DNA of 64,000 nt from Haematobia irritans (lineage: Eukaryota; Arthropoda; Insecta; Diptera; Muscidae), in assembly GCF_050003625.1 (NCBI RefSeq), contig NC_134397.1, positions 266,284,070 through 266,348,069 of the forward strand, written 5' to 3'. The notes beneath the pieces are model-generated. The model saw only the letters and a program-made list of their open reading frames with translations, ran no database searches and was not told the origin of the DNA. Numbering within the stretch: the first letter of the stretch is position 1; every line of letters starts with the position of its first letter. A program made the position numbers and the translations under genes. Of the stretch, positions 6,118 through 61,995 are shown piece by piece.

Positions 6118-6184
6118 TATAATAATGTCAATATTAGCCGATCCCCATAGATATGTCTCTAATAATCTCAAAAGATTTTCCATA

Positions 6185-6759: not shown

Positions 6760-6949
6760 TAATTATATATTTTTATCTATCACTAACAGTCACCTCCAAA
6801 TTCATCCGTACCGGTCCACATCACCCGAATTTGACTACTTGGAGAGTCATTTTAGTCACTATCCTTTCGGCACTTCAGTTGGTGGATAATTGAAAATAGT
6901 AACTCAAATTATAGTCTTTGAAAAATTTGAAAAAAAAAATTACCAAAAA

Positions 6950-8874: not shown

Positions 8875-9669
8875 ATGGGTGCGTTCCTGGATAAACCGAG
8901 AACGAACAAACATAATGACAGCGGTGAAGGAAACAATTTATTCTTCGGTGTAAGTTCGATGCAGGGTTGGCGTTGCCAAATGGAAGATGCATATTATGCT
9001 CAATCAGGTATAGGATTTGGTTTATATGATTGGTCAGTTTTCGCTGTGTTCGATGGCCATGCTGGTTATAAAGTATCTCAACATTGTGCCAAGCATCTGA
9101 TTGACAGTATCGTTAATAACCAGGAATTTCAATTCGGCAATTATGTGAATGGAATACGTAGGGGTTTTTTGGAGATCGATGAATCTATGCGCTACCTGCC
9201 AGAAATATGCGGTGGTACCACAGTTGTTTGTGCATTTGTATCACCCACTGATGTGTACATAGCGAATTGTGGTGACTCACGGGCTGTGCTGTGTCGTGAG
9301 GGCGCTCCTGTCTTTGCCACCCAAGATCACAAACCCATATTGCCAGAGGAAAAAGAACGAATACATAATGCCGGTGGTAGTGTGATGATAAAACGTGTAA
9401 ATGGTACATTGGCGGTTTCAAGAGCTTTGGGCGATTACGATTTTAAGAATGTCAAAAACAGAGGCCAATGTGAACAATTGGTCTCACCTGAACCGGAAAT
9501 CTTTTGCCAACCTCGACAAGATACAGATGAGTTTCTAGTTTTAGCCTGTGATGGCATCTGGGATGTTATGAGCAACGAAGATGTCTGCAGTTTTATACAC
9601 TCGAGGCTGAAAATTACCAACGATTTGGTAGAAGTAGCAAATGAAGTCGTTGACACATGTTTGAACAAG
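8875..9669 (+). CDS. alph: alph coding exon 1 (residues 1-265)
   Basis: Holds the start codon and most of the catalytic domain, from MGAFLDKP to VVDTCLNK. The donor is AACAAG|GTAAGA at 9669/9670, phase 0. The open frame continues past the donor to 9762, but that stretch (VRSYALIRK...) has no PP2C similarity and is read as intron. Confidence 0.95.
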
Positions 9670-15600: not shown

Positions 15601-16336
15601 GGGCCTGAATACGGTGGGTGGGGAACCAATTCGAAGCCCAATTCATGAATTTTTGCCATCGTTCTTAATAACTTGTGGCACGGTGCGTTGTCTTGGTGGA
15701 TCAACCCTTTTTTCTTCTTCATATGGGGCCGTTTAGCTGCGATTTCGACCTTCAAACGCTTCAATAACGCCATATAATAGTCACTGTTGATGGTTTTTCC
15801 CTTCTCAAGATAATCGATAAAAATTATTCCATGCGCATCCCAAAAAACAGAGGCCATTACTTTGCCAGCGGACTTTTGAGTCTTTCCACGCTTCGGAGAC
15901 GGTTCACCGGTCGCTGTCCACTCAGCCGACTGTCGATTGGACTCAGGAGTGTAGTGATGAAGCCATGTTTCATCCATTGTCACATATCGACGGAAAAACT
16001 CGGGTGTATTACGAGTTAACAGCTGCAAACACCGCTCAGAATCATCAACACGTTGTTGTTTTTGGTCGAATGTGAGCTCGCGCGGCACCCATTTTGCACA
16101 GAGCTTCCGCATATCCAAATATTGAGAATGATATGACCAACACGTTCCTTTGATATCTTTAAGGCCTCTGCTATCTCGATCAACTTCATTTTACGGTCAT
16201 TATACACTTCACCACTACTGTGGTACAGGGTATAATAAGTTTGTGCATTTGTATGTAACGCCAAGAAATAGTGGTCATAGACCCATCTTTTAGTATACCG
16301 ATCGGCTTAGAATTAAATTCTGAGTCGATTTAGCGA

Positions 16337-16367
<31 letters not shown>

Positions 16368-22300: not shown

Positions 22301-25300
22301 TGGTCTTTTTAAATGTTATCTTTTCGAAATTATTTCAAATTATATTGGAATAAGAGAATTTTTAAATTAAGACGAACAAACTTTAAGAAGCTTCAGATTC
22401 TATTCAATACCCAAATTTTACCACAATGTCCAAATGAGTCTCGGAACAAATTTTGACAAAAAACAAAACTTTGTTTATATTTTGCAAATTTTGAAGAAAT
22501 AATAGACTTTGGTTTACAATGCAAGTAGATTAGTCTGAAATAGTTTGAAGCGAAAAAGGTACTTTTTACTAAATTTCAACAAAACTTTCACTGGAAGATT
22601 ATTTTCAAGAGCTCCTTTAGACTGAATTTTAAAGAAAATAAAATTTTGACAACAATTTCTATAGAAATAAAATTTAAAAAGAATTCTATAAAAATAAAAT
22701 TTTGACAAAATATTCTATAGAAATAAAATTTTGCAAAAATTTTCTATAGAAATAAAATTTTGACAAAATTTTCTATTTAAATAAAATTTTGACAAAATTT
22801 TCTATATAAATAAAATTTTGACAAAATATTCTATAGAAATAAAATTTTGCAAAAAAAAAAATTATATAAATAAAATTTTGAAAAATTTTCTATAGAAATA
22901 AAATTTTGCAAAAATTTCTATAGAAATTAAATTTTGCAAAAAATTTTCTATAGAAATTAAATTTTGCAAAAAAAATTTTTATAGAAATAAAATTTTGCAA
23001 AAAAAAATAAAAAAAAAATTATATAAATAAAATTTTGCAAAAATTTTCTATAGAAATTAAATTTTGCAAAAAATTTTCTATAGAAATAAAATTTTGCAAA
23101 AAATTTTCTATAGAAATAAAATTTTGCAAAAAAATTTTATAGAAATAAAATTTTGCAAAAAAAAATTATATAAATAAAATTTTGGAAAAATTTTCTATAG
23201 AAATAACATTTTGCAAAAATTTTCTATAGAAATAAAATTTTGCAAAAATTTTTTGAAAAAAATTCTATATAAATAAAATTTTGACAAAATTTTCTATATA
23301 AATAAAATTTTGCAAAAAAAATTCTATAGAAATTAAATTTTGCAAAAAATTTTCTATGGAAATAAAATTTTGCAAAAAATTTTCTATAGAAATAAAATGT
23401 TGCAAAAATTTTCTATAGGAATAAAATGTTGCAAAAATTTTCTATAGAAATAAAATGTTGCAAAAATTTTCTATAGAAATAAAATTTTGCAAAAATTTTC
23501 TATGGAAATAAAATTTTGCAAAACTTTTCTATAGAAATTAAATTTTGCAAAAAATTTTCAATAGAAATAAAATTTTGCAAAAAAATTTTTATAGAAATAA
23601 AATTTTGCAAAAAAAATTATATAAATAAAATTTTGGAAAATTTTCTATAGAAATAAAATTTTGCAAACATTTTTTGAAAAAATTTCTATATAAATAAAAT
23701 TTTGACAAAATTTTCTATATAAATAAAATTTTGCAAAAAAATTCTATAGAAATTAAATTTTGCAAAAAATTTTCTATGGAAATAAAATTTTGCAAAAAAT
23801 TTTCTATAGAAATAAAAGTTGCAAAAATTTTCTATAGGAATAAAATGTTGCAAAAATTTTCTATAGAAATAAAATGTTGCAAAAATTTTCTATAGAAATA
23901 AAATTTTGCAAAAATTTTCTATAGAAATAAAATTTTGCAAAAATTTTCTATAGAAATAAAATTTTGACAAAATATTCTATAGAAATAAAATTTTGCAAAA
24001 AAAAATATATATAAATAAAATTTTGCAAAAATTTTCTATAGAAATAAAATTTTGCAAAAATTTTCTATAGAAATTAAATTTTGCAAAAAAATTCTATAGA
24101 AATAAAATTTTGCAAAAAAATTTTTATAGAAATAAAATTTTGCAAAAATTTTCTATAGAAATAAAATTTTGAAAAAATGTCTAAATAAAATTTTGACAAA
24201 ATTTTTCATATAAATAAAAATTTTCAAAAAATTTCTATAGAAATAAAATTTTGCAAAAAATTCCTGGTTTGAAGACATCGCTAATCGATCGGCATTAAAA
24301 ATAGAGACAACATGTTCTCCGAAAAATGGCGTATTTCAATGATGACTACTTTTTGTTACATTGAAAGACAATCCAATTTTGACCAACGTCAAATAGCTAG
24401 TAATCGGCTTTGAATTTCAGTAATCGCAATCGCAAATTGTTTTTTCGAAATATTTGGGACTTCAATCATCTTTCAATTTGAACTTTTCATTACAGAGATT
24501 TATATTGCAAAAAATTACGTTTATATTGCAAAAAATTAAAATTTAAGCTTTTGGCTTAAAAAATATCGCCATGGGAGAATAATCTATAAATCGATGGTCC
24601 AACATCAAAAGTAGATTTGAAATGATTTGGAAAAAGTCGAGTCTATTAGTCGATATTTGTCTGCTAAATTCCATAAATCTAAAGTAAATTGAATTAAATT
24701 AAAACTGTGATTAATTTAATAAAATTTAATTTAAATATATTATTACAATATTCATCCGAACTTATTGGACAGGTGTTGGTCAACACTGAAACATACACCA
24801 AAAAAAATATATATATTTTTTGTCTTCAATCACGAAATTAATTGATCCAATTAATTTTTAATTGAAATGAAAGTCAATTAAAAATTAATTGATCCAATTA
24901 ATTTTTGTTTCAATTACATTTTTAATTGAATATTTTCCTGTCCAATAAGCTCGAATGAATATTGTAATAATATGTAGTTTAATTTGGACATTACCAGCCT
25001 GCTAACATAAAAATTAAATTAACAAAATTTTATTAAAAAACATGAATTAATTATGTTAAATAAGTTATAATTAATAAAAATTAAATACATAACAAATCAA
25101 TACATCAAATTAAATTAAAATAAATTTTTATAATGTATGAAATAAAAATAAATAAAAAATAATTAATAATTCAGGCTCCCCCGCGGTATGTGTATAATTT
25201 AAGTATAGTACCCCTAATTAATTGACAAAAATGTTCAGTTCGTATATTAGGTTTCCTTGTGTAAAACAAAGAAAAAAACTAATATAAGAGAAGATTTAAA

Positions 25301-37296: not shown

Positions 37297-40200
37297 CTTG
37301 AAAATAAATATGGAGGTGGCATTAAAATAAATTAAATTTAATTTATGTATTAAATAAAAATTTATGGGATTTATTATGAACTAGCGTAACCCGGCCCGCT
37401 TCGCTGCGCCTTCCGAAGCGTATTTGTACGAACATTTTGTGTTAACTTAGTCAACCATATCCTTCGTCCTGAAAACAAATTCGAAAAGATTTGAATTCTT
37501 TCAAACAAATCGGACTACTTGCTTTTTCGTTTCTAGGTACAAATACGGCGGATATGCATATGTAAAACGGTTCGTCTTAAAAAATGTCGGAAAGAGGGTG
37601 TACCCTTTCCACTAAATTTTTTTAAATAATGTTCAAAATTCAAGTAGTTGGACAATCTTCTATTGTGAATTTTAAGTGTGGTTTGTCAAGGAAAGGTATC
37701 CTTCTCCTCAACATATTAAGCACTATATTATAATAACATACAAAGAATTACTGTTTCCCATCCAATAAATCGGAAAAAGCAAAAGTAGTAAAAAAATTTA
37801 CCACATTAACATTTGTTAAAATGTTGGACATGAAGAACATCCCTTTCCCGAACATATACCGGAAAATGATGCACCTTCTACGTTGGTTGCCAATTTCATA
37901 TACATTTAAGTTCTTTACTAAAAAGAAGTCTGGAAGCAGAAGCCTGTGCAAAAATCATAAAATTATGTACCGAGTGCCTATTTACGGACAACCCTCTACT
38001 TTCAATTTAAGAAAAAAAAAAACAAGTATATACGGCTGTAAGTTCGGCCAGACCGAATCTTATGTACCCTCCACAATGGATTGCGTAGAAACTTCTACCA
38101 AAGAATGCCATCCACAATCGAATTACTTGGGTTGTGGTATCTTAAAACTTCTTAACATCGTTTTCTAAATTGTGAGTTAGTCCATACGTGGTATATTTAT
38201 ATTAGACAAAAAAGTTATGTATAGGTAAGTCTACAAATAATTACGAATCAATATGGACTTTTTGCACGGTACGTAGAGAGCCAGAATTGAAATATGAGGG
38301 TCGCTTATGTGGGGGCTATATAAAATTACGAACTTGATATGGACCAATTTTTGTGTGATTGGGGATCGATTTATCTGAGGGCTATATATAACTATAGACC
38401 GATATGGACCTAGTTAGGCATGGTTGTCAACGGCCATATACTAGCACAATGTACCAAATTTCAACTGAATCGGATGAAATTTGCTCCTCCAAGAGGGGGC
38501 TATATATGATTATAGACTGATATGGACCACTTTTGGCATGGTTGTTAAAAATCATATACCACCACCACGTACCAAATTGCAACCAGATCTGATGCAATTT
38601 GCTTCTCCAAAAGGCACCGGAGGTCAAATCTGGGAATCGGTTTATATGGGGGCAATATATAATTATGGATTGATAAAGGGTGATACGGTCAAAATTTGGT
38701 CAATATAAACTTGACGTATATCTTTCAATTTTGCATTTAAAAAACCTGAACACCCCTCATTTTGAAGGTGTGTGTGTGTAGAATGTTGCTCCTATTTTGA
38801 TTTTGGAATTCACTCTTCAGTTGTCAAAATGCCGTCCAAGCAAGAAGAGCAGCGTATCAAAATTTTGCTCGCGCATCGCGAAAATCCGAGCTACTCGCAC
38901 GCAAAGCTGGCAAAATTGCTAAAAGTTGTCAAATCAACCGTTACAAATGTAATTAAAGTGTTTGGGGAACATTTGTCGACAGCCAGGAAGTCTGGATCGG
39001 GGGGAAATCGAAAACCGGAAGTCGCTGAGACGACAAAGAGAGTTGCCGGTAGTTTCATGCGAAACCCTAACCTCTCTCTCCGAGATGCCGCAAATAAGCT
39101 GGGTGTATCGTCTACAACCGTGCATCGAGCCAAAAAACGAGCCGGACTATCGACTTACAAGAAGGTAGTGACTCCAAATCGCGATGATGAACAAAATACG
39201 ACGGCCAAAGCGCGATCCCGGAGGCTGTACACGACGATAATGACGAAGTTTGACTGCGTGGTAATGGGCGACGAAACCTACGTCAAAGCCGACTACAATC
39301 AGCTTCCGGGACAGGAGTTTTATACGGCAAAAGGAAGGGGAAAGGTAGCAGATATTTTCAAGCACATAAAACTGTCAAAGTTCTCAAAGAAATATCTGGT
39401 TTGGCAAGTAATCTGTACCTGTGTCAACCAAGACGTGAAAGAGTGTTTGAATAAACGTCTGCTGTCTTTCCTGAAGAAACACGGTTGTTCCGTACTGTTT
39501 TGGCCGTACGGAATGGCATCTTGCCATTACGGTAAAAAGGCCATGGAGTGGTACGCCGCCAACAATGTGCAGGTGGTTCCCAAGGACAAGAACCCTCCCA
39601 ACACGCCAGAGCTCTGCCCAATTGAGAAATACTGGGCTATTGTCAAGCGGAACCTAAAGAAGACCAAAAAAACTGCTAAGGACGAGCAGCAGTTCAAGGC
39701 AAACTGGCTTTCTGCGGCGAAGGAGGTGGACAAGGTGGCTGTACAAAATCTGATGGCAGGTGTCAAACGTGAGGCCCGGCAATTCGGATTTGGAAAAGCG
39801 AAAGCCTAACTGAATATTTTTCCTGAATTTTATATTAATTGAACTTGAAAAAGAAATTTAATTTGATTTTTTAAATAAACGATTTCACCGATGTACACGC
39901 GTTTTCCCTTGACCAAATTTTGACCGTATCACCCTTTACAATTACGAACTTGATATGGACCAATTTTTGTGTGATTGGGGATCGATTTATCTGAGGGCTA
40001 TATAACTATAGACCGATATGGACCTAGTTAGACATGGTTGTTAACGGCCATATACTAGCACAATGTATCAAATTTCAACTGACTCGGATGAAATTTGCTC
40101 CTCCAATAGGTTCCAAAACCAAATCTCGGGATCGGTTTATATGGGGACTATATATGATTATGGACTGGTATGGACCACTTTTAGCATAGTTGTTAAATAT

Positions 40201-43200
40201 CATATACCACCACCACGTTTCAACCAGATCGGATGAATTTTGCTTCCCCATAAGGCACCGGAGGTCAAATCTGGGGATCGGTTTATATGGGAGCTATATA
40301 TAATTATGGACTGATATGAACCAATTCCTGCATGGTTGTTGGATACAATATATTAACATCACGTACCAAATTTCAACCGAATCGGATGAATTTTGCTCTT
40401 CCAAGGGGCTCCGGAGGTCAAATTTGGGGATCGGTTTATATAGGTCCTATATATAATTATGGATCGATTTCGACCAATTTTTGCATGGGTGTTTGAGGCC
40501 ATATATTAACACCACGTACCAAATTTGAACTGAATCAGATGAATTTTGGTCTTCCAAGAGGCTCCGGAGGTCAAATCTGGTGATCGGTTTATATGGCGGC
40601 TATATATAATTATTGAGAGATATGGACCAATTTTTGCATGGTCATTAGAGACCATATACTTACATCATGTACCAAATTTCAGCCGGATCGGATGAAATTT
40701 GCTTCTCTTAGAGGCTCGGTAAGCCAAATCGGGGGATCGGTTTATAAGGGGGCTATATATAATTATGAACCGATGTGGCCCAATTTTTGCATGGTCATTA
40801 GAGACCATATACTTACATCATGTACCAAATTTCAGCCGGATTGGATGAAATTTGCTTCTCTTTGAGGCTACGCAATCCAAATCTGGGGATCGGTTTATAT
40901 GGGGGCTATATATAATTATGGACCGATGTGGACCAATTTTTGCATGGTGCTTAGAGACATGTAGCAAATTTCAGCCGGATTGGATGAAATTTGCTTCTTT
41001 TAGAGCAATCGCAAGCCAAATCTGGGGGACCGTTTATAGCCCCCATATACGTAAAAGTGGACCGATATGGCCCATTTACAATACCATCCGACCTACATCA
41101 ATAACAACTACTTGTGCCCAGTTTTAAGTCGATAGCTTGTTTCGTTCGGAAGTTAGCGTGATTTCAACAGATCTCTTCGCCTCTTGTTACGGGGTTCGAG
41201 AGGGCTCTTACTGTAGACCACAACTTACCTGTGCCTAGACTATATTACCTCATGGTGGTCTAACCACGCTCTTGGTAATCACTTTCGTCATCTCAACTTA
41301 CCTTAGATACTTCTTCAGTATGACCTTCCATGACAGAAATCAATTCAAGATCTCCTTTAATACTCCAGACTCGAGCTGTACAGTCATTACTACCAGTAGC
41401 CAAACGTCGACCCGAACAATCAAAATTTACATCTAAGATTTCATCTGTATGTTCGCGAATTATAAATAGAGGTTCTGTGGTTTTTCTCACATCCCATATA
41501 CGAGCAGTACTATCCAAAGATCCAGTTGCTATCATATTACAAGAAAAATTCCAAATGGTATTACTTAATTCTGCTGTGTGGCCACGTAATTGTGATATCA
41601 AACTGAAATGAGAATAGAGGAAATTAAAAAAATGGAATAAGATAAGAAATCTGAGAATCACTGCGCGTGATATCATCTTAATGCCAATTAAACCTGTTCC
41701 CCAAATTTGAGGAACAAATTGTATTGGATCCGTGTATTATCCGTATTATTATCGATGGGGCCTACTCCGATCTTTTGTAACTATAATAAGTAAGGAAAGT
41801 CTAAAGTCGGTCGGGGCCGACTATAATATATCCTGCACCACTTTGTGCATCGATACCATATCAAACCCTTCAAATTAGTTGGGTGCTATATATAAAGGTT
41901 TGTCCCAAATACATACATTTAAATATCACTCGATCTGGACAGAATTTGATAGACTTCTACAAAATCTATAGACTCAAAATTTAAGTCGGCTAATGCACTA
42001 GGGTGGAACACAATGTTAGTAAACAAATATGGGAAACATTTAAATCTGAAGCAATTTTAAGGAATCTTCGCAAAAGTTTATTTATGATTTATCGCTCGAT
42101 ATATATATTAGAAGTTTAGGAAATTTAGAGTCATTTTTACAACTTTTTGACTAAGCAGTGGCGATTTTACAAGGAAAATGTTGGTATTTTGACCATTTTT
42201 GTTGAAATCAGAAAAACATATATATGGGAGCTATATCTAATTCTGAACCGATTTCAACCAAATTTGGCACGCATAGCTACAATGCTAATTCTGCTTCCTG
42301 TGCAAAATTTCAATTAAATCGAAATAAAGTATTGGCCACTGTGGTCATATGAGTGTAAATCGGGCGAACGATATATATGGGAGCTATATCTGAATCTGAA
42401 CCGATTTCAATAAAATTTGGTACACTTGACTATAATACTAATTGTTCTTCTTGTGCAAAATTTTAAGCAAATTAGGATAAAAATCTGACTTCTGGGGCCA
42501 TATAAGTCCATATCGGGCGAAATATATATATGGGAGCTATATTTAAATCTGAACCGATTTCTTCCAAAATCAATAGGGTTCTATTCTGAGCCAAAACACA
42601 TACTTGTGCCAAATTTGAAGTCGATTGGACTAAAACTGCGACCTAGACTTTGATTACAAAAATGTGTTCACGGACAGACGGACATCGCTATATCGACTCA
42701 AGAGCCCACCCTGAACATTTTTGCCAAAGACACCATGTGTCTATCTCGTCTCCTTCTGGGTGTTGCAAACATATGCACTAACTTATAATACCCTGTTCCA
42801 CAGTGTGGGGCAGGGTATAAATATGGGAAACATTTAAATCTGAAGCAATTTTAACGAAACTTCGCAAAAGTTTATTTATGATTTATAGCTCGATATCGGG
42901 CGAAAGATATATATGGGAGCTATATCTAAATCTGAACCGATTTCAATCAAATTTTGCACACTTGACTATACTACTAATTGTACTCCTAGTGCAAAATTTC
43001 AACCAAATTCGGGCAAAAATCTGGCTTCTGGGGCCATATAAGTGCATATCGGGCGAAAGATATATATGGGAGCTATATCTAAATCTGAACCGATTTCTTC
43101 CAAAATCAATAGGGATCTATTCTGAGCCAAAACACATACTTGTGCCAAATTTGAAGTCGTTTGGACTTAAATTGCGACCTACACTTTGATCACAAAAATG

Positions 43201-46200
43201 TGTTCACAGACAGACGGACGGACGGACAGACAGACATGGTTATATCGACTCAGGGACCCACCCTGAGCATTATTTCCAAAGACACCATGTGTCTATCTCG
43301 TCTCCTTCTGGGTGTTACAAACATATGCACTAACTTATGATACCCTGTTCCACAGTGTGGCGCAGGGTATAAAAAAAACTTCCTGTGTAGAATATCTTTG
43401 GGAGGACATTTGTGGAAGTGCTTTTAAGTTGTGCCTTTAGAACAATTTCCAAATTTTTTTGCTGGAATGTTATTTAAATCTAGTGAAGTTTTAAGGCAAG
43501 TTCAAAAAGTGAGTTTATGATTTATCGGTCGATATTAGATGTATAGGAAAATTTAAGCAATTTTTAAAAGTTTTTTTTTATTTTTTTTGGCGTTTTGGCA
43601 ATTTTTTCTCACATCGGAAAATATTGATATAATTAACTTTTTAAACATTTTTTTTTTAATTTTTATTAAAAATGTATTTCAAACAATCAATTGTTAATCC
43701 AAATAAAAACTCTAAGCCAATTCAGAAAGTACTTGAAAATAGTTACCTTTTTTTAATTAAAAAATTAATTGAGTTTTGCAATCAACATCAAGTAAATTTT
43801 TAATTGAACCAATTAAAAAATGAATTGAAGTTTGCTAATGAAATCAATTAATTTTTTAATTAATTTTTTTTCTATGTCCAATTAAAACTGTGATTGATAC
43901 TATCATTTTCGTGATTGAAGACATTTCAATTAAACAATTAATTGGATCAATTAATTTCGTGATTGAATCAGAAAAAAAATGTTTGTATGTGTGGGTTTTT
44001 CCACGTGATAACTTTAAAAAAATTTAATTTTACACAATTTTGGATGAAAAATAACAAAAATAACTTAAATTTTTCGCCTCGGTATTTTTGAAACGAACAC
44101 TTATTTTATTTTTTTCGAAACGAACACTTTTGACATTTACAACCGTGATACATAGTTGCTACATTTTCGTAAATCGAAAAGAATCTCCGATTGTAGAAAA
44201 TTTACACCTTGAATTCGGAATACATAAGGTCTGTTCGCGTACTTTTCCAGTAAAAAATATCCAGTAAAAACCATAGACAATAGATGTTATATAGATAGGC
44301 CATGTGTCTCTTTAAAAAAAATGTGTCAGTTCCAAAAATTAATTTTCTGACATTTCGTTTTGATTTTTTCTAAAGAGTCAGTCCCAAATATTAATTTTCG
44401 TGCATTTGCTTTTGTGTTGCTCGTAAAGAGCAATGCTGCTCAAAATTAAATTTCGTATTTTCGCGGTTTTGGTCACAATTTTTTGTTCAAATATGAACTT
44501 TTAATATATTAATTTATTTATAAATCCTCTGGTGCATCATAAACGTTCTAATTTTGTGTAATATTGGCATACTACAAAATGGAAAACGAAAGAGATTGTA
44601 AGCGTGCTCTTATTTTTCTCGTTTATTCTTAATCTTCGGAACTGTCAAACATAGTTTGACACCCATGGCCCATCTATGTATTATAAGGTCTATGGTAAAA
44701 ACTAGCAAGAGAGTAAGAGTGTATTTTACTCTCTTCGCTTAAAAGTGCTGATAAGTACTCGAACGGCATCCAGTGCACATTCAAATTTTCAGCTTCTAAA
44801 ATATTAAGAATAAAAAACGGATTTTCTTTTTTTTTTAACTTCCAATTGCAGTTGCGGGACACGTACATTTTATTGGGGCTTTGTTTGTTATCAACAACTA
44901 GCTGGCAACGTATGCTATAGTTTGCAAGATTTTACTGGGGAAAAAAACTCTAGCAAATACTTGCAATTTCTCTAGCTCTTAACTGTCAAATGTAGTCTCT
45001 CTCCGGCTCTTTTTTGTAGACTTTTTGTGATAATTATCAAAAATTATCGGGTCCTCGAACGGAGCTATAGTGGCACTAATTTGTTTTCGATTGATGTTGT
45101 TATCGATACGAATTACATAGTAACCCCTCTGAACCGATTTCAATTTAAATTTTGAATGCATAATAAGAATTTTAACCCTAACCAGTCATCCGTCGTCAAA
45201 ATGACGACGCGTAATTTAATTTTCGATAAATTTAAGTTACACTAATTCTACCATTTTATGAATTTTGGTTTTATATATAATTAAAAAAAAATTTTTTTGA
45301 ATAAGAAAATAAACTCGATTTTGGTTCTGATTTTTGCACACGATGTATGAAACTAACCGTAGTCCAGATATTTTCTGAAGGGTGCTAAGCCCTCCCTTAG
45401 AGGCCTTTCTACGCTTATGTATCGAGGACATAGGGGAGCTACTTTGCGATTTTATATTATTAAAGAATATTATTGGAAAATCCTTTAGTACTAATGGTCT
45501 TTCATAAATTTTCGTACACAGAAAAAAAATATCACCAAAATATTTCCAATTAAAAAGTTAATTGAAGTTGAAAATCTTTTCAATTAATAAATTAATTGAT
45601 ACAATTAACTTTTTAATCATGATAGAAACATTAAGTTAATTAAGTCAATGGTTGAAAATTTTAAATTTTTAATTAAATAATTAATTTATACAATTAAATT
45701 TTTAATCAAATTCGGAAGACTAATTCAGTTACAAAAAGCGCTGTTTTTTGTTTAATTTTTAATTAAAAATGTATTTCAAACAATCATTTGTTAATCCAAA
45801 TAAAACCTCTAAGCCAATTCAGAAAGTAATTAAAAATAGTTACTTTTTAATTAATAAATTAATTGAGTTTTGCAATCAACATCAATTAAATTTTTAATTG
45901 AATCAATTAAAAATTTAATTGAAATTTGCTTAAAAAATCAATTAATTTTTTAATTAAATTTTTTTTTCTATGCCCAATTAAAACTGTGATTGATACTATC
46001 ATTTTCGTGATTGAAGACATTTCAATTAAAAAATTAATTGCATCAATTAATTTAGTGATTGAATAAAAAAAAAAAAAAAATTTTTGTGTGTACGAAATGA
46101 CTCAATTGAAATTGCTATTATTCTCAATGTGATGATATTAGATCTTGCCTTTTGCTTCGTATATCCCATATAGAGGCAGATCTATCAAACGATCCTGTTA

Positions 46201-49200
46201 AGAGCATATTTCCATCTCGGCTAAAACGACAATTTATCACTTCAGCTCCATGATGGTTTAATGTTTGTAATTCTTGTGTTGACTCGACATGAAATATACG
46301 GGCTGTACCATCCATAGATGCCGTGCATATTGTCTCGCTGTTGATCGGCTGAAATTCGGCTGATACAATTTCGGCAGTGTGACCAATTAAAGTACTACGG
46401 CACTGTCCAGACAAGGGACACCATATTTTGGCAGTGTTGTCAAAAGATCCTGTAACTATGCGATCACTGAAAAGAAATAATAAAAAAAACCTAGGTTAGG
46501 TTAGGTATAGGGACAATTTTTTATTTGAGGTTAACTTAGTCTATTCAGTCCATCTTCATGTAAACTTTGTTTTTGAGTCAACAATATACAATACAATATC
46601 CCGTGTGATGTTTCCCCATCATTATTAGATCTGTTCGCGTACTTTTCCAGTAAAAACAAACAAACAGTAAGAGTGTATTTTACTCTCTTTGTTTAAAATT
46701 GCTGAAAAGTACACGAACGTTTTCCAGTAACTAATTGCACATTCAAAATTTCAAATGCTAAAACATTAAGAACAAAAAAACGAATCCTGCTTATTTAACT
46801 TCCAATCGTAGTTGCCGAACATGTACTCAATAATCAGCTGGCAACGTATGATATGGTTTGAAAGATTTTACTGGGGGAAAAGTCTCTAGCAAAAACTTGC
46901 AATTTCTCTATCTCATAACTGTCAAATGTAGTATCTCTCCGGTTCTCTTTTGCTGGCTTTTAGGTATAAACGAACGACTTCCAGTAACAGGTTGGCTGAT
47001 AAGTCCCCGGTCTAACAAAGAAAAACACATTTTTTTTGTCAAAATTCGTTTTTATTATTCAACATAGTTCCCTTCAAGAGCGATACAGCGATTATAACGA
47101 CCTTCCAATTTTTTGATACCATTTTTGTAGTACTCCTTCGGTTTTGCCTTAAAATAGGCCTCAGTTTCGGCGATCATCTCTTCATTGCAGCCAAATTTTT
47201 TCCCTGCGAGCATCCTTTTGAGGTCTGAGAACAAGAAAAAGTCGCTGGAGGCCAGATCTGTAGAATACGGTGGGTGGGGAAGCAATTCGAAGCCCAATTC
47301 ATGAATTTTTTTATCAAAACACGAAATTCTTTTTTTTTTTCAATTTTTTCACAATAATAAAATTTGCTTCACAAAAGACGCTCTATCTCACAAACTAATT
47401 GACTTACAAACGTCAAATTTTGACACGAATTATTTGAAGGTTGGTACTATATAAAAATAATATGCATTTAATACTAGCGACGACATCTACGTGTCAGACC
47501 GGGGACTTATCAGCCAACATGTAAAAAATTTGTGATAATTATCAAAAATTTTCGGGTTCTCGAACGGAGCTATTATCCCGTAACTTTGCCTTGCAGAATG
47601 TAATCATATCATAAAACTTATATTGGTTTGACACATTTACTATAAAGAGCACGTGTAGTTTGAAAGTTGCTATATAATATAGGAATAGAATAAGTCCACA
47701 GAGAAAATATTTTTATATAGAAAAGTTAATGGTTTATAATAACCTACAAAATACAAAATTTTTTTATTTCCAAACGAAATTTTGGGCCAACTAACATCAT
47801 CTTGTAACTCACTCTCTCTCTCAGTGGAAACATTTTTGTCTGAAAGAAAAAACATTATTTTTCTTATAAACAATTTAATAATAGTCCCAAAAAATGTTTC
47901 CTTTTTCCTGGATAATTAAATTTTCCCAACATACCATTTGCTCTGGTATAAAGAATGAATAAGGAATGTAGTAAATATCCGATTTTATATAATTTTCAAA
48001 TTTTACATTTTGCGAACCATCCGTTTGGTAAGCCAACCACGGTTGCCACTCGATCCAAAAATAATCTACCAATATTTTAAGAAAATTTTACCAAAAAAAC
48101 TACCAAATAAATAAATCTTATTTTGAAGTTTTTGATTTTTATAGAAAATTTTTTCGAAATTTTATTTCTATAGAAAATTTTGTCAACATTTTATTCCAAG
48201 CGAAAATTTTGTCAAAATTTTATTCCAAAAGAAAATTTTGTCAAAATTTTATTCCTAGAAAAAAAAAATTGTCAAAATTGTATCCTATAGAAAATTTTAT
48301 TCCCATAAAAAATTTTGTCCGATAGAAAATTTTGTTACTTTTTCCTATAAAAAATTTTATACTACAGAATATTTTGTCAAAATTTTAATACTATAGAAAA
48401 TTTTGTTAAAATTTTATTCCTATAAATTTGTCAAAACTTTATTTGTATAATTTTCCCAACATCATTCCCATATGATTCGTTTAGCTCTTACCATTTGCTT
48501 TGGTATAATACCAAGAATGCGACAGTTAATCCGATTTCATATAATTTTTAATTTTACATTTTGCCCGGACCCGAACCATACGCTCGAACGAATGCGTTTG
48601 GTAAGCCAACCATGATTGCCACTCGATCCAAAAATAATCTATTAAAATTTGAAGAAAATTTTACCAAAAAACTACCAAATAAAAACCTGATTTTTAAGTT
48701 TTTGATCCATATAGAAAATTTTGTCAAAATTTTATTTCAATAGAAAATTTTGTCAAAATTTTATTTCAATAGAAAATTTTGTCAAAATTTTATTTCAATA
48801 GAGAATTTTTGCAAACATTTTTTCTATAGAAATTTTTTAAAAAGTTTTTTTTTCTATAGAAAATTTTGTCAATATCTTTTTCATATTGAAAATTTTGTCA
48901 ACTAAAGAAGATTTTGACAAAATTGTATTCCTACAAAAATTTTTCAAAATTTTATGCCTAAAGGAAAATTTGTCAAAATTTTATTCTTTTTATTCTTAAG
49001 CTATAAAGTATATATATTCTTGATCAGGGAGAAATTCTAAGACGATATAACGATGTCCGTCTGTCCGTCTGTCTGTCTGTCTGTCTGTCTGTTGTAATCA
49101 CGCTACAGTCTTCAATAATGAAGCAATCGTGCTGGAATTTTGCACAAACTCGTCTTTTGTCTGCAGGCAGGTCAAGTTCGAAGATGGGCTATATCGGTCC

Positions 49201-52200
49201 AGGTTTTGATATAGTCCCCATATAAACCGACCTCCCGATTTGGGGTCTTGGGCTTATAGAAATCGTAGTTTTTATCCAATTTGCCTGAAATTTGAAACCT
49301 AGAAGTATTTTATGACCATAAAGAGGTGTGCCAAAAATGGTGAGTATCGGTCCATGTTTTGATATAGCCCCCATATAGACCGATCTCCTGATTTTATTTC
49401 TTGGGCTTATAGAAACCGCAGTTTTTATTCAATTTATCTGAAATTGGAAATCTAAAGGTACTGTAGGACCACAAATACGTGTGCCAAAAATTGTGAGTAT
49501 CGGTCCATATTTTGGATAGCCCCCATATAGACCCATCTCCCGATTTTACTTCTTGGGCTTATAGAAACCGCAGTTTTTATTCAATTTACCTGAAATTGGA
49601 AATCTAGAGGTACTGTAGGACCACAAATACGTGTGCCAAAAATTGTGAGTATCGGTCCATATTTTGGTATGGCCCCCATATAGACCCATCTCCCGATTTT
49701 ACTTCTTGGGCTTATAGAAACCGCAGTTTTTATTCAATTTACCAGAAATTGGAAATCTAGAGGTATTGTAGGACCACAAATATGTGTGCCAAAAATTGTT
49801 AGTATCGGTCCATGTTTTGGTATGGTCCCCATATAAAAAGTCGTCCCGATTTGGGGTCTTGAGCTTATAGAAACCGTAGCTTTTATCCAATTTGTCTGAA
49901 ATTGGAAACCTAGAGGTATTTTAGGACCATAAAGAGGTGTGCCGAAAATGGTGAGTATCGGTCCATATTTTGGTATAGCCCCCATATAGACCGATTTCCC
50001 GATTTTATTTCTTGAGCTTCTAGAATCCGAAGTTTTTATCCTATTTGCCTGAAATTGGAAATCTAGAGGTATTTTCGGGTCATAAAGAGGTGTGCCGAAA
50101 ACGGTGAGTATCGGTCCATATTTTAGTATAGCCCCCATAAGAACGATCTCCCGATTTAACTCCTTGGGTTTCTAGAAACCGTAGTTTTTATCTGATTTGC
50201 TTGAAATTGTAAATATTCTGGTATTTTAGGCTCACAAAAACGTGTATCGGATTAAGTTTTTATCGGTCCATTTGGTAATGCCTCCATATAGACCGACTTC
50301 ACTTCTTGAGGGTGTAGAAGACGCACTGATCATGAAAATTGCTTGAAACTCAATGTAAAATTTCCAGATTTTACTTCTACAGATTTAAGATTTCAAATCA
50401 AGACGTTATTTTATAATTTTCTTGCACACTTACAAGACATGTTAACGATTCCTCTATAACTCGAACAAAAATGGTTCTTATAAATCCAGAATATGATATA
50501 GTCCTCATAGGTGAAATCCTTAAATTTATCTTCGGGAAGTGTCCTCAAGTCCTCAATCCCTCCTGACATTTCAAAGGAAACCCTAATATTTGGTTCATGG
50601 TGGTGGGTATTTAAGATTCGGCCCGGCCGAACTTACTGCTGTATATACTTGTTTAATTTATTCCTAGCGAAATTTTTGTCAAAATCTTATCCTATAGACA
50701 ATTTTGTTAAAATTTTATTCCTATAATTTTTTTTTTCAATTTATTCCTAGCGAAAATTTGTCACCATTTTATTCCTATAAAAAAATTGTATCCTACACTG
50801 AAAAAACAGTGAACCCACCAGGAAGAAAACTTTCGGTTAATTTTTTTTAGAAAATTTTAACTAAACAGTATTACTAACGCTAGCATCACGTCGATATCAC
50901 AAAAACAAGTATATACAGCACTAAGTTCGGCCGGGCCGAATCTTAAATACCCACCACCATGAACCAAATATTAGGGTTTCCTTTGAAATTTCAGGAGGGA
51001 TTGAGGACTTGAGGACACTTCCCGAAGATAAATTTAAAGATTTCACCTATGAGGACTATATCAGATTCTGGATTTATAAGAACCATTTTTGTTTGAGTTT
51101 TAGAGGAATCATTAACATCTCTTGTAAGTGTGCAAGAAAATTATAAAATAACGTCTTGCTTTGAAATCTTAAATCTGTAGATTTTCACCCGAGAAGTATC
51201 TGAAATCTGAAAATTTTACATTGAGTTTCAAGCAATTTTCATGATCAGTGCGCCTTCTATACCCTCAAGAAATTAAGTCGGTCTATATGGAGGCATTACC
51301 AAAAGGACCGATAAAAACTTAATCCGATACACGTTTTTGGGAGCCTAAAATAATATTTACAATTTCAGGCAAATCGCATAAAAACTACGGATTCTAGAAA
51401 CCCAAGAAGTAAAATCGGGATATCGGTCTATATGGGGGCTATACCAAAACATGGACCGATACTCACCATTTTTGGCACACGCCTTTATGGTCCTCAAATA
51501 CCTTCAAATTTCCAATTTCAGACAAATTGTATTTAAGCTACGGATTCTATAAGCCCAAGACCCCAAATCGGGAGGTCGTTTTATATGGGGACCACACCAA
51601 AACATGGACCGATACTCACAATTTTTGGCACACGTATTTGTGGTCCTACAATACCTCTAGATTTCCAATTTCAGGTAAATTGAATAAAAACTGCGGTTTC
51701 TATAAGCCCAAGAAGTAAAATCGGGAGATCGGTCTATATGGGGGCTATACCAAAATTGGACCGATACTCACCATTTTCGGCACACATCTTTATGGTCTTA
51801 AAATACCACTAGATTTCCAATTTCAGGCAAATAGGATAAAAACTTCGGATTCTAGAAGCCCAAGAATTAAAATCGGGAAATCGGTTTATATGGCGGCTAT
51901 ACCAAATATGGACCGATACTTGCCATTTTCGGCACACCTCTTTATGATCCTAAAATACCACTAGATTTCCAATTTCAGACAAATTGGATAAAAACTACGG
52001 TTTCTATAAGCCCAAGACCCCAAATCGGGAGGTCCTTTTATATGGGGACCATACCAAAACATGGACCGATACTCACAATTTTTGGCATACGTATTTGTGG
52101 TCCTACAATACTTCTAGATTTCCAATTTCAGGTAAATTGAATAAAAACTGCGGTTTCTATAAGCCCAAGAAGTAAAATCGGGAGATCGGTCTATATGGGG

Positions 52201-55200
52201 GCTATACCAAAACATGGACCGATACTCACCATTTTTGGCACACCCCTTTATGGTCATAAAATACCTCTACATTTCTAATTTCAGGCAAATTGGATAAAAA
52301 CTACGATTTCTATAAGCCCAAGACCCCAAATCGGGAGGTCGGTTTATATGGGGACTATATCAAAACCTGGACCGATATAGCCCATCTTCGAACTTGACCT
52401 GCCTGCAGACAAAAGACGAGTTTGTGCAAAATTTCAGCGCGATTGCTTCATTATTGAAGACTGTAGCGTGATTACAACAGACAGACAGACAGACGGACAG
52501 ACGGACATCGTTATATCGTCTTAGAATTTCTCCCTGATCAAGAATATATATACTTTATATAGTCGGAAATCGATATTTCGATGCGTTACAAACGGAATGA
52601 CAAACTTATTATACCCCCGTCACCATTCTATGGTGGTGGGTATAATAAGTAAATATTTTTCGACAAATTCAAGAAAATTTATTGAGTGTATAGAAAATTT
52701 GGTCAAAATTTTATTCCTACACCCAAAGAAATTTGTTAGTAAGGACAGCAGAAAAGTCTGCTAAAACAGCAGAAAGTCTGCTGAAAAAGGGGCAGCAGTC
52801 ACTGTTTGCTGAAATAGCAAACATTCCCTGCTATTTTTTAAGCTCGATTAGACTAAAACATGTTTTATTTTGGCAAAAATGTCAACTTTGGAGCTATCCT
52901 AACAGAATTAACACAATATTTTATGAATATCTATAGTATTTGACCAAAAATCTAAATATTTATCGAATTGAGGTATAACAGCAAACAAAATGTTTGCTGA
53001 TCGTATTTAGGAGCTTGTAAGTATATTACTGAGCAAAAATATACCAAAAACTACTTTTGGTTCTTAAATATGCTTTAGGGAAAATTTTATAACCTAAAAA
53101 TTTTATAAATTGTTGTTCATTAGGCCCTGAAGTACAAAAATATAACAGCAGACATCGACTGCTGTTTTTAGCAGACTTTTTTCTATGAGTGTATAGAAAA
53201 TTTTGTCAAAATTTTATTCCCATAGAAAATTTTGGCAAAGTTTTATACCTGTAAAAAATTTTATCAACATTCAACATCAACAAATTTGTCAAAATTTTAT
53301 TTCTAGACAAAATTTTGTCAAAATTTTATTCCAGAGAAATTTTTGCCAAAATTTTATTTCGATAGATAATTTTGTAAAAATTTTATTTTGATAGAAAAAG
53401 TTATAGAATTCTACCAATCTACCAAGCAGTAAAAAAATCTACCATTTTTGTCCGGATTCGAACCACGGACCAATATCCACTGGGTCATGTAGCTCGTATA
53501 CTGATTAACACACAAATATCGTTGTAGCCATCAGCACACACATAACGAATATAGCTAAGCATGTCTATTTATAGACCAGTGTGCTATGCACACACAAGCG
53601 CATTTAAAGACACTTCGTTTAAACGTATGATGCTCCATTTCTTTCATTTATACCTTTTCTTAAATGAACCACAAAAATGACAATCGTATATATCCGTAAG
53701 ACTAAACTGACTATCTTTTTTGTGATGTAATTGGAGAGTTTGTCTTACCATTTGGGAAAATTGAAGGCGACCGAAAAGACAACATTATCATGCTCTGCCA
53801 GCACATGTTCGACATTTCCATTGTGCGTGTTGATGAGGCGACACGTTCTATCGTAGCTTCCGGTTAAACAACGTTCTCCGCTCCTATCAAATGCCACATT
53901 AGTCAATGGCAGGATGTGCGTGTCGAGTCGCGTGTGCAGATAGAATTTTTTCTTAGTGGGCTCTTGCAGTTTACGTTGCAGCTTAGCAATGGCTTTCCGC
54001 AGGACACCATTGACAGTATCTGTATCACGAATAGCCTGTTTTCCATGGGCTGGTACACGAGAGGATGAAGACAATGACGAGGAAGAGTTGTTTCTGGTAT
54101 AGGTTTTACGTTTGCTTAATGTTCCCGATGATGTTTGTTCATCTGGCTGGAGTTTTTGGTTTTGCCCTTGTTGTTGACTTTCATTGTCATGGTCTCTTAG
54201 AAGTAGATTACGTGCCACATCATTTGGATTGGAACTGCAAATGAATAAGGAACATCAATGAGAGGAATGTGTGTGGGTGGGCATAAGCATATGAGGACAT
54301 GTGACGCTATCAATATGGGCCCCATGAAAATGAAACTCCAAATCTATGTGAAGTAAAGCCACAAAATATTAACGACATGAGCCCCAAACCTCAAATGAGA
54401 CAGGGCCACAAATGTGGGGGCGACGCCTAATAATGGATATGAGTCCCATGCAAATGAACCCCACCAAAATGTAACTGAAGCATGAAAATCAACCCCAAAT
54501 TAAAATTAGGGCTCATTTTCACTTTTAATGTAAAAGACCGTGTGAAAATAAACCCTAACTGATGGGAAAAATATTAAGTCTTAAAAAAATTAAATTTCGA
54601 AATACTCCACCACATGACTTGGAGGTATGAGAATGGGCACCAAATGAGCCCCAAAACTCAAATGAAACAGGGCGCCAAATGTAGGACGACACTTCACAAT
54701 GAATATGAGCCCCAACAAAATGTACATGTAGGATGAAAATCGAGGCCAAAGCAAATTTAGGGTTTATTTTCGCATCTGATTTAAAAGATGTTCTGAATAA
54801 GAGCGCTAACTGATGGAAAATTAAATATGTGCTACTAAAAGTAGCAAGTAGGATTTGACTATTCCAGTATACGAAAATAGGCCCCACTTGAAAACGAAGC
54901 GCAATCCAAAAAAGGAAATTGGGATTTATTTTCATTTGAAATAATTGGGATTATATTCATAATGCAAACGGGCCCCAAAAATATAATGGAGTTACTCAGC
55001 ACAAAAACATAAAAATTTGGCGTTTTCGTGTTTCATATTTTTTTCATGGATCCCATATTTCTAGCTCCCACATTTTTATGTTTTTTGGTGTGTAACTTTA
55101 TTTTATGATCAAATCCCAGAAAGCGAAAATAGGCCCCACTTGAAAAGGAAGCGCTATCGAAAAATTAGGGCTTATTTTCACGTCTGATTTAAACAATTTT

Positions 55201-58623: not shown

Positions 58624-59989
58624 AACAAGTAAGGAAAGTGTAAAGTCGGGTGGGGCCGACTATATTATACCCTGCACCACTTTGTAGATCTAAATTTTCG
58701 ATACCATATCACATCCGTCAAATGTGTTGGGGGCTATATATAAAGGTTTGTCCAAAATTCATACATTTAAATATCACTCGATCTGAACAGAATTTGATAG
58801 ACTTCTACAAAATCTATAGACTCAACATTTAAGTCGGCTAATGCACTAGTGTGGAACACAATGTTAGTAAAAAATATGGGAAAAATTTTAAATCTGAAGC
58901 AATTTTATGGAAACTTCGCAAAAGTTTATTTATGATTTATCGCTCGATATATATGTATTAGAAGTTTAGGAAAATTAGAGTCATTTTTACAACTTTTCGA
59001 CTAAGCAGTGGCGATTTTACAAGAAAAATGTTGGTATTTTGACAATTTTTGTCGAAATCAGAAAAACATATATATGGGAGCTATATCTAAATCTAAACCG
59101 ATATCAGCCAAATTTGTCACGCATAGCTACAATGCTAATTCTACTCTCTGTGCAAAATGTCAACTAAATCGGAGCAAAAAATTGGCCTCTGTGGTCATAT
59201 GAGTGAAAATCGGGCGAAATCTATATATGGGAGCTATATCTAAATCTGAACCGATTTCAACTAAATTTGGCACGCATAGCAACAATGCTAATTCTTCTCC
59301 CTGTGCAAAATTTCAACCAAATTGGGGTAAAACTCTGGCTTCTGGGACCGTATTAGTCCATATCGGGCGAAAGATATATATGGGAGCTATATCTAAATCT
59401 GAACCGATTTCAATAAAATTTGGCACACTTGACTATACTACTAATTGTACTCCTAGAGCAAAATTTCAACAAAATTGGAGTAAAACTCTGGCTTCTGGGA
59501 CCGCATTAGTCCATATCGGGCGAAAGATATATATGGGAGCTATATCTAAATCTGAACCGATTTCAATAAAATTTGGCACACTTGACTACACTATTAATTG
59601 TGCTCCCTGTGCAAAATTGCAACCAAATTGGGGTAAAACTCTGGCTTCTGGGACCGTATTAGTCCATATCGGGCGAAAGATATATGGGAGCTGTATCTAA
59701 ATTTGAACTGATTTCAATCAAATTTTGCACACTTGACTATACGACCAAGTGTTATGTTTGTGCAAAATTTCAAGCAAATCAGGGTAAAATTCTGGCTTCT
59801 GGGTCCATATAAGTGCATATCGGGCGAAAGATATATATGGGAGCTATATCTAAATCTGAACCGATTTCTTCCAAAATCAATAGGGTTCTATTCTGAGCCA
59901 AAACACATACTTGTGCGAAGTTTGAAGTCGATTGGACTAAAACTGCGACCTAGACTTTCATTACAAAAATGTGTTCACGGACGGACACC
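58624..59989 (+). repeat. Family A 153-bp-unit element (+), nearly complete
   Basis: Starts 'aacaagtaaggaaagtgtaa', 'gggtggggccgactatatta', 'taccctgcaccac'. The GGGAGCTATATC landmark recurs at 59229, 59382 and 59535, exactly 153 bp apart. It is truncated after 'gtgttcacggacggacacc', where a family B copy begins. Confidence 0.82.
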
Positions 59990-61797
59990 ATAGTAACACA
60001 CATCGAATTATTGTTCTAATACCCCATAAAGTATATATGTTATATTCTGGGTCGTGGTGAAATTCTGAGTCGATCTAGCTATGTCCGTCTCTGTCCGGCT
60101 GTACGTCCGTCTGTGGAAATCACGCTAACTTGAAACTTGCCACAAGTAGTTGTTATTGATGTAGGTCGGATGGTATTGCGGACCACGTTTACGTATAGGC
60201 CCCATATAAACCAGTCCCCTGAGTTGACCTCCGGAGCCTCTTGATGGAGCAAAATACATCGGATGCGGTTGAAATTTGGCACGTGTTGTTAGTATATGGT
60301 ATTTAACAACTATGCAAAAATTTATTATTATCGATCCATAATTATATACAGCCACCATGTAAATCGAACCCCAGATTTGACTTTCGGAGCCTCTTGGAGG
60401 AGCAAATTTGATCCGATCCGGTTGAAATTTGGTACGTGGTGTTAAGATACGGTCTCTGATAACCATGCAAAAATGTATCCATATCGGTCCATAATTATAT
60501 ATAGCCCCCATATAAACCGCTCCCCAGATTTGACCTCCGAAGCCTCTTGGAGGAGCAAAATACATCCGATCCGGTTGAAATTTGGCATGTGTTGTTAGTA
60601 TATGGTCTCTAACAACCATGCAAAAATTTATCCATATCGGTCCATAATTATATATAGCCCCCATATAAACCGATCCCCAGGTTTGACCTCCGGAGCCTCT
60701 TGGAGGAGCAAATTTGATCCGATCCGTTTGAAATTTCTCACGTGTTTTTAGTATATGATCTCTAACAACTATACAAAAATGTATTCATATCGGTCTATAA
60801 TTATATAGAGTCCCCATATAGTCCTATCCCCAGATTTGATCTCCGGAGCCTCTTGGAAGAGCAAATTTCATCCGATCCGGTTGAAATTTGGTACCTGGTA
60901 TAAGTACATAGTCTCTAGCAACTATGAAAAATTAGTACATATCGGTCCATAATTATATATAGCCCCAATTTAAATCGATCCCCAGATTTGACCCCCGAAG
61001 TCTCTTGGAGGAGCAAAATTCATCCGATTCGGTTGAAATTTGGTACATTTTGCTAGTATATAGCCACTAACAACAATGCACGCAAAAATTGGTCCATATC
61101 GGTTCATTAGTGTTATCCCCATATTCAATTCTGGCTCTCTAATTACCGCGCAAAAGATCGTATCGGATTGTAATTATTTGTAGACTTCCCTATATATCGG
61201 TCAACAATTGAATTATATACTCTGCATTTTTGTCTAATTTATACCACGTATTGACTAACTTACAATTTAGAAGGCGATGTTAAAATGTTGTAAGATACCT
61301 TAGGTTAGGTTAGGTTAGGTTAGGTGGCAGTCCGATGTATCAGGCTCACTTAGACTATTCAGTCCCTTGTGATACCACATTGGTGAACTTCTCTCTTATC
61401 ACTGAGTGCTGCCCGATTCCATGTTAAGCTCAATGACAAGGGACCTCCTTTTTATAGCCGAGTCCGATCGGCGTTCCACATTGCAGTGAAACCACTTAGA
61501 GAAGCTTTGAAACACTCAGAAATGTCACCAGCATTACTGAGGTGGAACAATCCATCGCTGAAAAACTTTTTGGTGTTAGGTGGAAGCAGGAATCGAACTC
61601 ACGACTTTGTGTATGCAATGCGGGCATGCTAACCATTGCACCACGGTGGCTCCCAAGATACCTTATTATCGGCAAGTATTACCACAACCCAAGTAATTCG
61701 ATTGTGGATGACAGTCTTAAGTAGAAGTTTCCACGCAATCCATTGTGGAGGGTACATAAGATTCGGCCTGGCCGAACTTACGGCCTATATATAGTTG
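59990..61797 (-). repeat. Family B 153-bp-unit element (-), interrupted by a SINE
   Basis: Left part 'accccataaagtatatatg', 'tattctgggtcgtggtgaaa', then units with CCCCCATATAAACCG at 153-bp spacing (60505 and 60658). Right end 'ggagggtacataagattcgg', 'cctggccgaacttacggcc'. The SINE lies at 61303-61654. Confidence 0.8.
61303..61654 (-). mobile_element. tRNA-derived SINE, complete, with perfect 11-bp target duplication
   Basis: Box A (complement of 61633-61643, TGGTGCAATGG) and box B (complement of 61589-61599, AGTTCGATTCC) form a tRNA-like pol III promoter. The body is about 270 bp and the 3' tail is several TAACC units instead of poly(A). Flanks AAGATACCTTA at 61292-61302 and 61655-61665 are identical direct repeats, the mark of target-primed insertion. 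It needs a LINE partner in trans. Confidence 0.88.
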
Positions 61798-61995
61798 TTT
61801 TAATTTAAAATTTTTAATCAAACTAAAAACACTAACGACCATTTTCATGTGCTCCATTAGCCTTTAACTACCAATCAACAAAAATATCTTCTTTCTGATT
61901 AACTTAAAATTAATTGAGTTTTACAATCAACATCAATTAAATTTTTATTTGAATTTATTAAAAAATTAATTGAAAATTTTTTATCAAGCCTTTTT
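61798..61995 (-). repeat. Family D-like fragment, right half
   Basis: 'aaaatttttaatcaaactaa' continues the sequence type interrupted at 58623; further AATTAATTG motifs run to about 61980. Confidence 0.5.

Follow-up and report, generated by a model that had tools for sequence, protein, structure and literature searches.

Homologous tandem repeats with a 153-bp period in probable Helentron families of Haematobia irritans

Introduction

What are the 153-bp tandem repeats found at one locus of Haematobia irritans (Diptera, Muscidae), and why do units of differing sequence keep a single length? The locus occupies positions 58624-61797 of a 64,000-nucleotide stretch of DNA (RefSeq assembly GCF_050003625.1, contig NC_134397.1, forward-strand positions 266,284,070 to 266,348,069), which was analysed as a whole and is called the window here. 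A preliminary description of the window had distinguished three repeat families (A, B and C), proposed that they descend from one ancestral unit whose length is under constraint, and been unable to place them in a known transposon class.

Repeats of similar length have been described in other flies. Helitron-2 of Drosophila virilis contains four 153-154-bp repeats at positions 237-1087 of its 9141 bp (PMC3833285), and the 154-bp repeat is transcribed and is a source of piRNAs (PMC12910113). Homology of the DINE-TR1 repeats, which are about 150 bp long, extends across Drosophila and Bactrocera (PMC9957191), and satellites have arisen from them (PMC9957191; PMC6922343). Names differ between sources: one speaks of the virilis DINE-1 (PMC3833285) and another reports its classing as DINE-TR1 (PMC6922343).

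We found no description of the present repeats in the muscoid-fly literature; one may exist in Repbase, in supplements or in subscription papers. The main text of the stable fly genome paper (PMC7944917) contains no occurrence of 'helitron'. Literature searches with the core strings returned no relevant paper, the papers retrieved for a 153-bp Helitron repeat were three on plants, and searches of viral and prokaryote collections for exact-pattern relatives gave 0 matches.

Results

Repeat units of four families are homologous

TRF detected period-153 arrays at 10 places in the window, including 59064-59868, 60194-61080 and 49192-50214, and the landmark positions originally named for families A, B and C were all correct (10 of 10). 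Units were cut from 11 arrays, namely these ten and the array at 7263-7691 (TRF period 149), after two spurious core matches (offset 102, inside A arrays) had been taken out by hand. Exactly 153 bp was the length of 34 of the 47 window units, and the remaining 13 measured 142-155 bp. The A, B and C consensuses were built solely from the 34 units of 153 bp.

Aligned without gaps over 153 bp, the consensuses show identities of 0.562 (A-B), 0.614 (A-C) and 0.621 (B-C). Offset 0 on the same strand is the best of 306 offsets for every pair, with the register partly given by the cutting of units at a shared 14-bp core. None of 1000 dinucleotide shuffles per pair reached the observed identity (best-of-306 mean 0.365-0.367, maximum 0.451). 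With the first 31 bp removed, identities are still 0.51-0.59, and the other 121 offsets give at most 0.377. These gap-free alignments bear out the proposal that A, B and C units share ancestry, which extends to a fourth family.

This family, D, came to light among units pooled from the window and the sampled loci, where those of 153 bp cluster as the same three families (53, 44 and 29 units) plus one outlier. The outlier represents D, which is built on the same 153-bp unit (loci L063 and L024). The D unit of L024 is 0.61, 0.56 and 0.58 identical to A, B and C, respectively, again with offset 0 as the best. Spacings in the D array of L063 (G000 C1:2704800-2707799) are 174, 153, 153, 153, 154 and 153 bp, and one of the four 153-bp units there is just 0.69 identical to the L024 unit. 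Across A-D units, 57 of 153 positions are invariant.

Across the genome, too, the spacing is mostly 153 bp, which supports the fixed unit length of the preliminary description. We counted 193,171 neighbouring pairs of perfect cores spaced 138-168 bp, and 160,887 of them (83%) are exactly 153 bp apart. Pairs spaced 124-148 bp, a range that overlaps the first, number 12,996; arrays that lack a perfect core are invisible to the patterns used in these counts. The reversed-pattern control gave 0 pairs in all three genome-wide spacing counts. Spacing equals 153 bp in 80 of 100 among the genome core-pair matches listed, and in 127 of the 187 units (spacing 100-210 bp) from the window and sampled loci together, the other 60 having a different length. 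The exact 153-bp pairs correspond to about 24.6 Mb, or 2.1% of the 1.17-Gb genome, with units of changed core uncounted.

An autonomous element carries an A-type array

We conclude that A, B, C and D are very probably families of Helentrons (DINE-1-like rolling-circle transposons), and that their 153-bp arrays are central repeats derived from one ancestral unit. A genome search for the Rep domain (Helitron) produced 69 matches, four of them with frames of 1596-2221 aa. The autonomous element is described from two of the 69 matches, which were examined in full length: RH1 (724-11097) and RH2 (556-11029) are 10.4-kb Helentron copies, 98.6% identical over 10,474 bp. Each begins with a 5' TTATACCCTTCACC subTIR and an inverted repeat, followed by a leader, a (GTCY)n microsatellite, an A-type array, decayed units, the Rep-helicase frame and the 3' end. 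The microsatellite (at 865 in RH1 and 697 in RH2) lies between the 5' block and the repeats. In DINE-1, too, the microsatellite sits between the 5' block and the repeats. The A-type array is placed between the microsatellite and the Rep-helicase gene, with cores on the minus strand and core spacings of 152/153/153 bp in RH1 and 152/153 bp in RH2. At the 3' end, GGTGAAGGGTATAA, the reverse complement of the 5' subTIR, precedes a hairpin and a final TT.

RH1 contains a 2169-aa stop-to-stop frame, the RH2 counterpart of which is broken into pieces of 1596, 382 and 341 aa. The 2169-aa frame encodes Helitron_like_N (E 2.4e-22), PIF1 (E 3.6e-26) and DUF6570 domains, as well as a weak Exo_endo_phos match (E 4.3e-4, below the Pfam cut-off). 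The Rep-helicase frame matches 19 solved sequences, Helraiser among them. Near its start, the frame (L059 3351-9857; also in L060) contains 189-bp (63-codon) tandem repeats, which constitute a second array in the element. A third long-frame Rep match, L056, is a 64-72% relative of the autonomous element over the alignable parts.

An autonomous partner with Rep, helicase and endonuclease (the last below the cut-off) was identified for the A family alone. Near Rep-domain matches we also found B arrays (L041, L051 and L052) and a C 3' end (L039). B-type 3' ends lie 459 and 1306 bp downstream of the two autonomous copies (L059 and L060), in the same orientation.

The insertion site of RH1 is present without the element at L052 3110-3190, with 99.6% identity over 225 bp on the left and 96.3% over 218 bp on the right. 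The empty site reads CCATTATTAT-TAATCATAG and RH1 has the same flanks around the element, indicating at this one site a TT insertion without target duplication. The empty site strengthens the Helentron reading, and together with the near-identical autonomous pair it makes the element testable. The repeats, which the preliminary description could not assign, thus have a class: they lie between Helentron ends, family A has a Rep-helicase partner, and central repeats of about 150-154 bp have been described for Drosophila DINE-TR1/Helitron-2.

Elements in the window

Elements of the window (Table 1) share one order in Helentron orientation: 5' end, microsatellite, array (cores on the minus strand) and 3' end. 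The locus at 58624-61797, first taken for a single element, instead consists of two elements that abut head to head, A in reverse and B, with a SINE-like insertion, in forward orientation. The build of RH1 and RH2 identifies the end at 58624, initially read as 5', as a 3' end. A single fold-back element spanning 58624-61801, whose inverted arms would be A and B, was dropped for the same reason. The SINE-like insertion, with its flanking repeats at 61292-61665, ends on one side in TTAGG repeats; its other end gives a tRNA-like impression, and ARAGORN found no tRNA there. Sequences related to the insertion lie at 17563-17794 and 5126-5269.

Table 1. Helentron-family elements and their parts in the window
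Feature	Position	Strand	Basis
A-family non-autonomous Helentron; 5' end lost at junction ~59988	58624-59988	-	3' end 83% identical over 100 bp to autonomous element; array; microsatellite remnant (by eye)
A 3' end: subTIR (reverse complement of TTATACCCTGCACCAC), hairpin GTCGG..CCGAC, terminal CTTGTT	58624-58723	-	sequence comparison with autonomous end
A array, 5.3 units of 153 bp; core ATATGGGAGCTATA on plus strand, i.e. minus relative to Helentron	59064-59868	+	TRF, unit alignment
B-family non-autonomous Helentron, most of 5' leader lost; abuts A head to head	59989-61799	+	leader like that of the B copy at 7944 from ~59992 (by eye); array; 3' end
(GTCY)n-type microsatellite of B element	60082-60116	+	sequence; same place as in autonomous element
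B array, 5.8 units of 153 bp; core on minus strand	60194-61080	-	TRF, unit alignment
SINE-like insertion in B element; 11-bp duplication AAGATACCTTA at 61292 and 61655	61303-61654		sequence
B 3' end: subTIR, palindrome TTCGGCCTGGCCGAA, terminal palindrome CTATATATAG, TTGTT	61740-61799	+	sequence
A element, both ends; array 42214-42561; 3' subTIR mutated	41785-42820	-	TRF, end comparison
A element, 5' end present, 3' part missing	42821-43375	-	end/leader comparison
A element, both ends; array 11312-11975	11057-12414	+	TRF, end comparison
A element, both ends; leader 96.5% identical to autonomous (173 bp); array 16481-17199	16199-17477	+	leader comparison
B element, decayed 3' end; degenerate array 7263-7691 (period 149)	6946-7944	-	TRF, leader/end comparison
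B element; array 39976-40958; interrupted by transposase-like ORF 38766-39809	38020-41129	-	TRF, Pfam
C element, both ends; array 51355-52377; subTIR ATACCCACCACCAT at each end	50903-52650	-	TRF, end comparison
C element without 5' end; array 49192-50214	49002-50654	+	TRF, end comparison
C element cut by window start; array 2-854	2-1206	+	TRF
C element without 5' end; array 1748-2298	1404-2452	-	TRF

Other features of the window were recorded alongside. Scans with Rfam (gathering threshold) and for tRNAs gave 0 matches in the window. Pfam families were matched by the frames at 15408-16190 (Transposase_1, E 1.7e-23) and 20675-21769 (DUF4817, E 1.4e-14); the frame at 2846-3466 matched none. The 38766-39809 frame inside a B element contains helix-turn-helix domains and has a DDE_3 match below the cut-off. 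Between an A and a B element, a frame of 298 aa (8866-9762) encodes a PP2C phosphatase domain (E 4.4e-74). A WD40 exon is located at 46124-46495 on the minus strand (E 1.8e-19); frames at 41293-41736 and 53745-54254 resemble it by eye, perhaps as parts of one gene with transposon-filled introns. Variants of a 29-bp AT-rich unit, AAATAAAATTTTGCAAAAATTTTCTATAG among them, form arrays at 7013-7188, 22636-24262, 48141-48984 and 53193-53398, some of which adjoin Helentrons.

Terminal structures differ between families

The letters that follow TACCC in the subTIR are family-specific and change jointly at both ends: TTCACC in autonomous A, TGC.CC in window A, TCCAC in B, ACCACCAT in C and TAAACCAC in D. 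The D element has the Helentron architecture as well, with ATACCCTAAACCAC near both ends and a reversed microsatellite. Helentron subTIRs measure about 11-15 bp. Within one element, the exact match between the two subTIRs extends over 18 bp in RH1, 16 in RH2, 14 in C and 11 in the A element 11057/12414, four of the seven two-ended elements compared; in D it extends over 14 bp. It extends over 6-7 bp only, interrupted by changes, in the other three of the seven (42820/41785, 16199/17477 and 7944/6956). The B 5' end has 11 bp in common with A 3' ends versus 10 with B 3' ends (best B match 10). Since subTIR matches are this uneven, we named families by unit and subTIR type, and the published 11-bp family rule was not strictly applied.

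Beside the 5' subTIR, RH1 and RH2 both contain the inverted repeat TTATACCCTTCACCAC..GTGGTACAGGGTATAA, and similar repeats are seen by eye in A, B, C and D copies. The 3' stem-loop or palindrome is GTCGG..CCGAC in A and TTCGGCC.GGCCGAA in B and C.

Discussion

Unit length appears more conserved than shared descent predicts

Among nearest units, within or between copies, we measured 13 indels per 201 substitutions (34 reciprocal best pairs) or 113 per 850 (85 disjoint pairs), a ratio of 0.065-0.13. A Jukes-Cantor tree of A-D, based on 153-bp-unit consensuses with D represented by one unit, contains about 173-181 substitutions per unit. At the measured ratios, about 11-24 indels are expected, and there is no net length change. 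Roughly 175 substitutions without net length change, set against these ratios, make the length seem conserved beyond shared descent, although at an assumed ratio of 0.02 the indel deficit would reach only P 0.02-0.04. Some length constraint on the unit beyond shared descent is thus suggested, as the preliminary description had proposed, and this conclusion is supported rather than proven.

Compensating indels were considered and rejected. Gapped alignment of the consensuses is no better than the gap-free null (66 to 1000 of 1000 replicates equal to or above the observed value, 12 tests). The gapped procedure overfits, with simulations free of indels at 40% divergence yielding 4.6-4.8 gaps versus the 6, 9 and 4 seen.

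Leaders offer a comparison within the same elements. Between families or subfamilies they differ by 2-12 indel events (B-C by only 2), counted in single copies, with some indels private. Simulations free of indels were run at 20, 25, 30 and 35% divergence; the leader means were 0.16, 0.56, 1.37 and 2.41, and the highest values 3, 6, 9 and 10. Leader indels are mostly above these simulations and some values, B-C included, fall within the simulated maxima, a pattern that is suggestive only.

Copying in register, selection and other origins

The constant length may be a by-product of array copying, a reading to which we give somewhat less than an even chance. Units in register would be duplicated together and units with an indel would drop out, with no selection on length. 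Consistent with such copying, C arrays are copied as blocks with the order of units largely kept between copies, and indels occur in a minority of units (13 of 47 in the window; 60 of 187 with the sampled loci). The closest relative lies in another copy for 16 of 20 C units and 8 of 15 A units, but for just 3 of 11 B units, which argues against copying in register in B. Moreover, substitutions have spread through the arrays, so indels would be expected to spread too. The same relationships weaken local concerted evolution, another of the mechanisms first suggested for the length, in A and C, and leave it unweakened in B.

Alternatively, the unit may be under selection, a possibility we take seriously while considering it short of probable. 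A protein, RNA or chromatin feature would need cores spaced at 153 bp (15 turns of 10.2 bp), for example to drive expression of the downstream Rep-helicase gene. Several observations are in keeping with this idea. First, four families have kept 153 bp across the divergence at which those 11-24 indels are predicted. Second, most comparisons between leaders of these elements reveal indels. Finally, the autonomous element has its array upstream of the Rep-helicase gene. Against selection, a 10.2-bp AT periodicity is absent from the A, B and C consensuses (harmonic 15 non-significant), although harmonic 14 in A and B (p 0.03-0.04) and harmonic 16 in A (p 0.02) and C (0/500) are nominally significant. 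The AT analysis thus lends no support to nucleosome-scale packaging, which had likewise been suggested at first for the length. Nor do the units have a common fold, as judged from the A, B and C consensuses: B (z -3.6/-1.7 as RNA, -3.9/-5.0 as DNA) and C (-2.1 to -2.8) beat dinucleotide shuffles, and A (+0.5 to -0.7) does not. The 60 units of other lengths indicate that single units tolerate indels, and the low assumed ratio considered above leaves only a marginal deficit. We slightly prefer copying in register over selection since it requires nothing else.

A more specific proposal is that the 153-bp period is a functional Helentron trait, with the spacing of phased sites selected for expression, replication start or silencing while sequence drifts by 40% and length does not. 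Such a trait might date to the split from Drosophila. We offer this tentatively and regard it as rather unlikely.

Repeated capture of an independent satellite DNA by different transposons is improbable. Helitrons are able to capture tandem repeats (PMC12628747), but here the array occupies the same slot in the same orientation across families, and the leaders themselves are related, with 69-84% aligned identity when families or subfamilies are compared.

That the unit is, or once was, a 51-codon repeat of a protein is more improbable still. In favour of this reading, 153 is divisible by 3, and the YMGAI... frame runs open through the B and C consensuses and gives frames of 145-219 aa in the window. 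Against it, the A consensus contains a stop, and 22 of 34 units are stopped in the YMGAI frame. Within families, changes are synonymous about as often as expected (47 vs 49.0, 32 vs 30.5 and 65 vs 66.1), and third positions show no excess of changes (codon positions 1/2/3: AB 25/19/23, AC 22/20/17, BC 27/16/17). These tests show no purifying selection on the frame, and the coding phase once suggested as a source of the constraint is contradicted.

A possible history of the repeats

We propose that an ancestral central repeat was inherited with the element, and that ends and array would then have diverged into the present families, with whole arrays copied along with the element. Short gene-less elements are presumably moved in trans by the Rep-helicase protein of autonomous copies. 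The array might act in cis, as a 5' regulatory region or a piRNA source, with its units kept in register. The 153-bp unit may also share descent with the DINE-TR1 repeat.

The transposon class is already known, and the unit has clearly conserved its length while about four in ten letters have changed. Because several families whose units are homologous coexist, they provide a natural experiment on why transposon-internal repeats keep a satellite-like length. Such a length in internal repeats has been proposed as a stage in how satellite DNA arises.

Comparison with known systems

The elements resemble the Helentrons and DINE-1 of Thomas et al. 2014 (PMC4067079) in terminal architecture, Rep-helicase partner, TT insertion and the presence of tandem repeats in some copies; the relevant passages of that paper make no mention of a unit length common to families. 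Like the oyster HINE/Cg_HINE elements (PMC7492417), they have subTIRs, a 5' inverted repeat, a microsatellite, central repeats and a 3' palindrome. In oyster, 13 clusters, not all of them related, have monomer consensuses of 138 to 181 bp (PMC7492417), whereas all four families here have units of 153 bp, a comparison that is uneven in that our families were found through their shared core.

The closest known system is Helitron-2/DINE-TR1 (154TR) of D. virilis and its relatives, likened to ours by period and position, not by sequence. Both are rolling-circle elements with very many truncated copies, and in both the array lies close to the 5' terminus (in Helitron-2 at 237-1087 of 9141 bp; here at about 317-1290 of 10.4 kb). 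Identity between dmgsat-7 and DINE-TR1 repeats is reported to be confined to the first 30 bp (PMC9957191); in the present units, the first 31 bp belong to the best-conserved part. Unlike Helitron-2/DINE-TR1, the H. irritans elements fall into four or more diverged families that coexist in a single genome and whose units are homologous over their full length.
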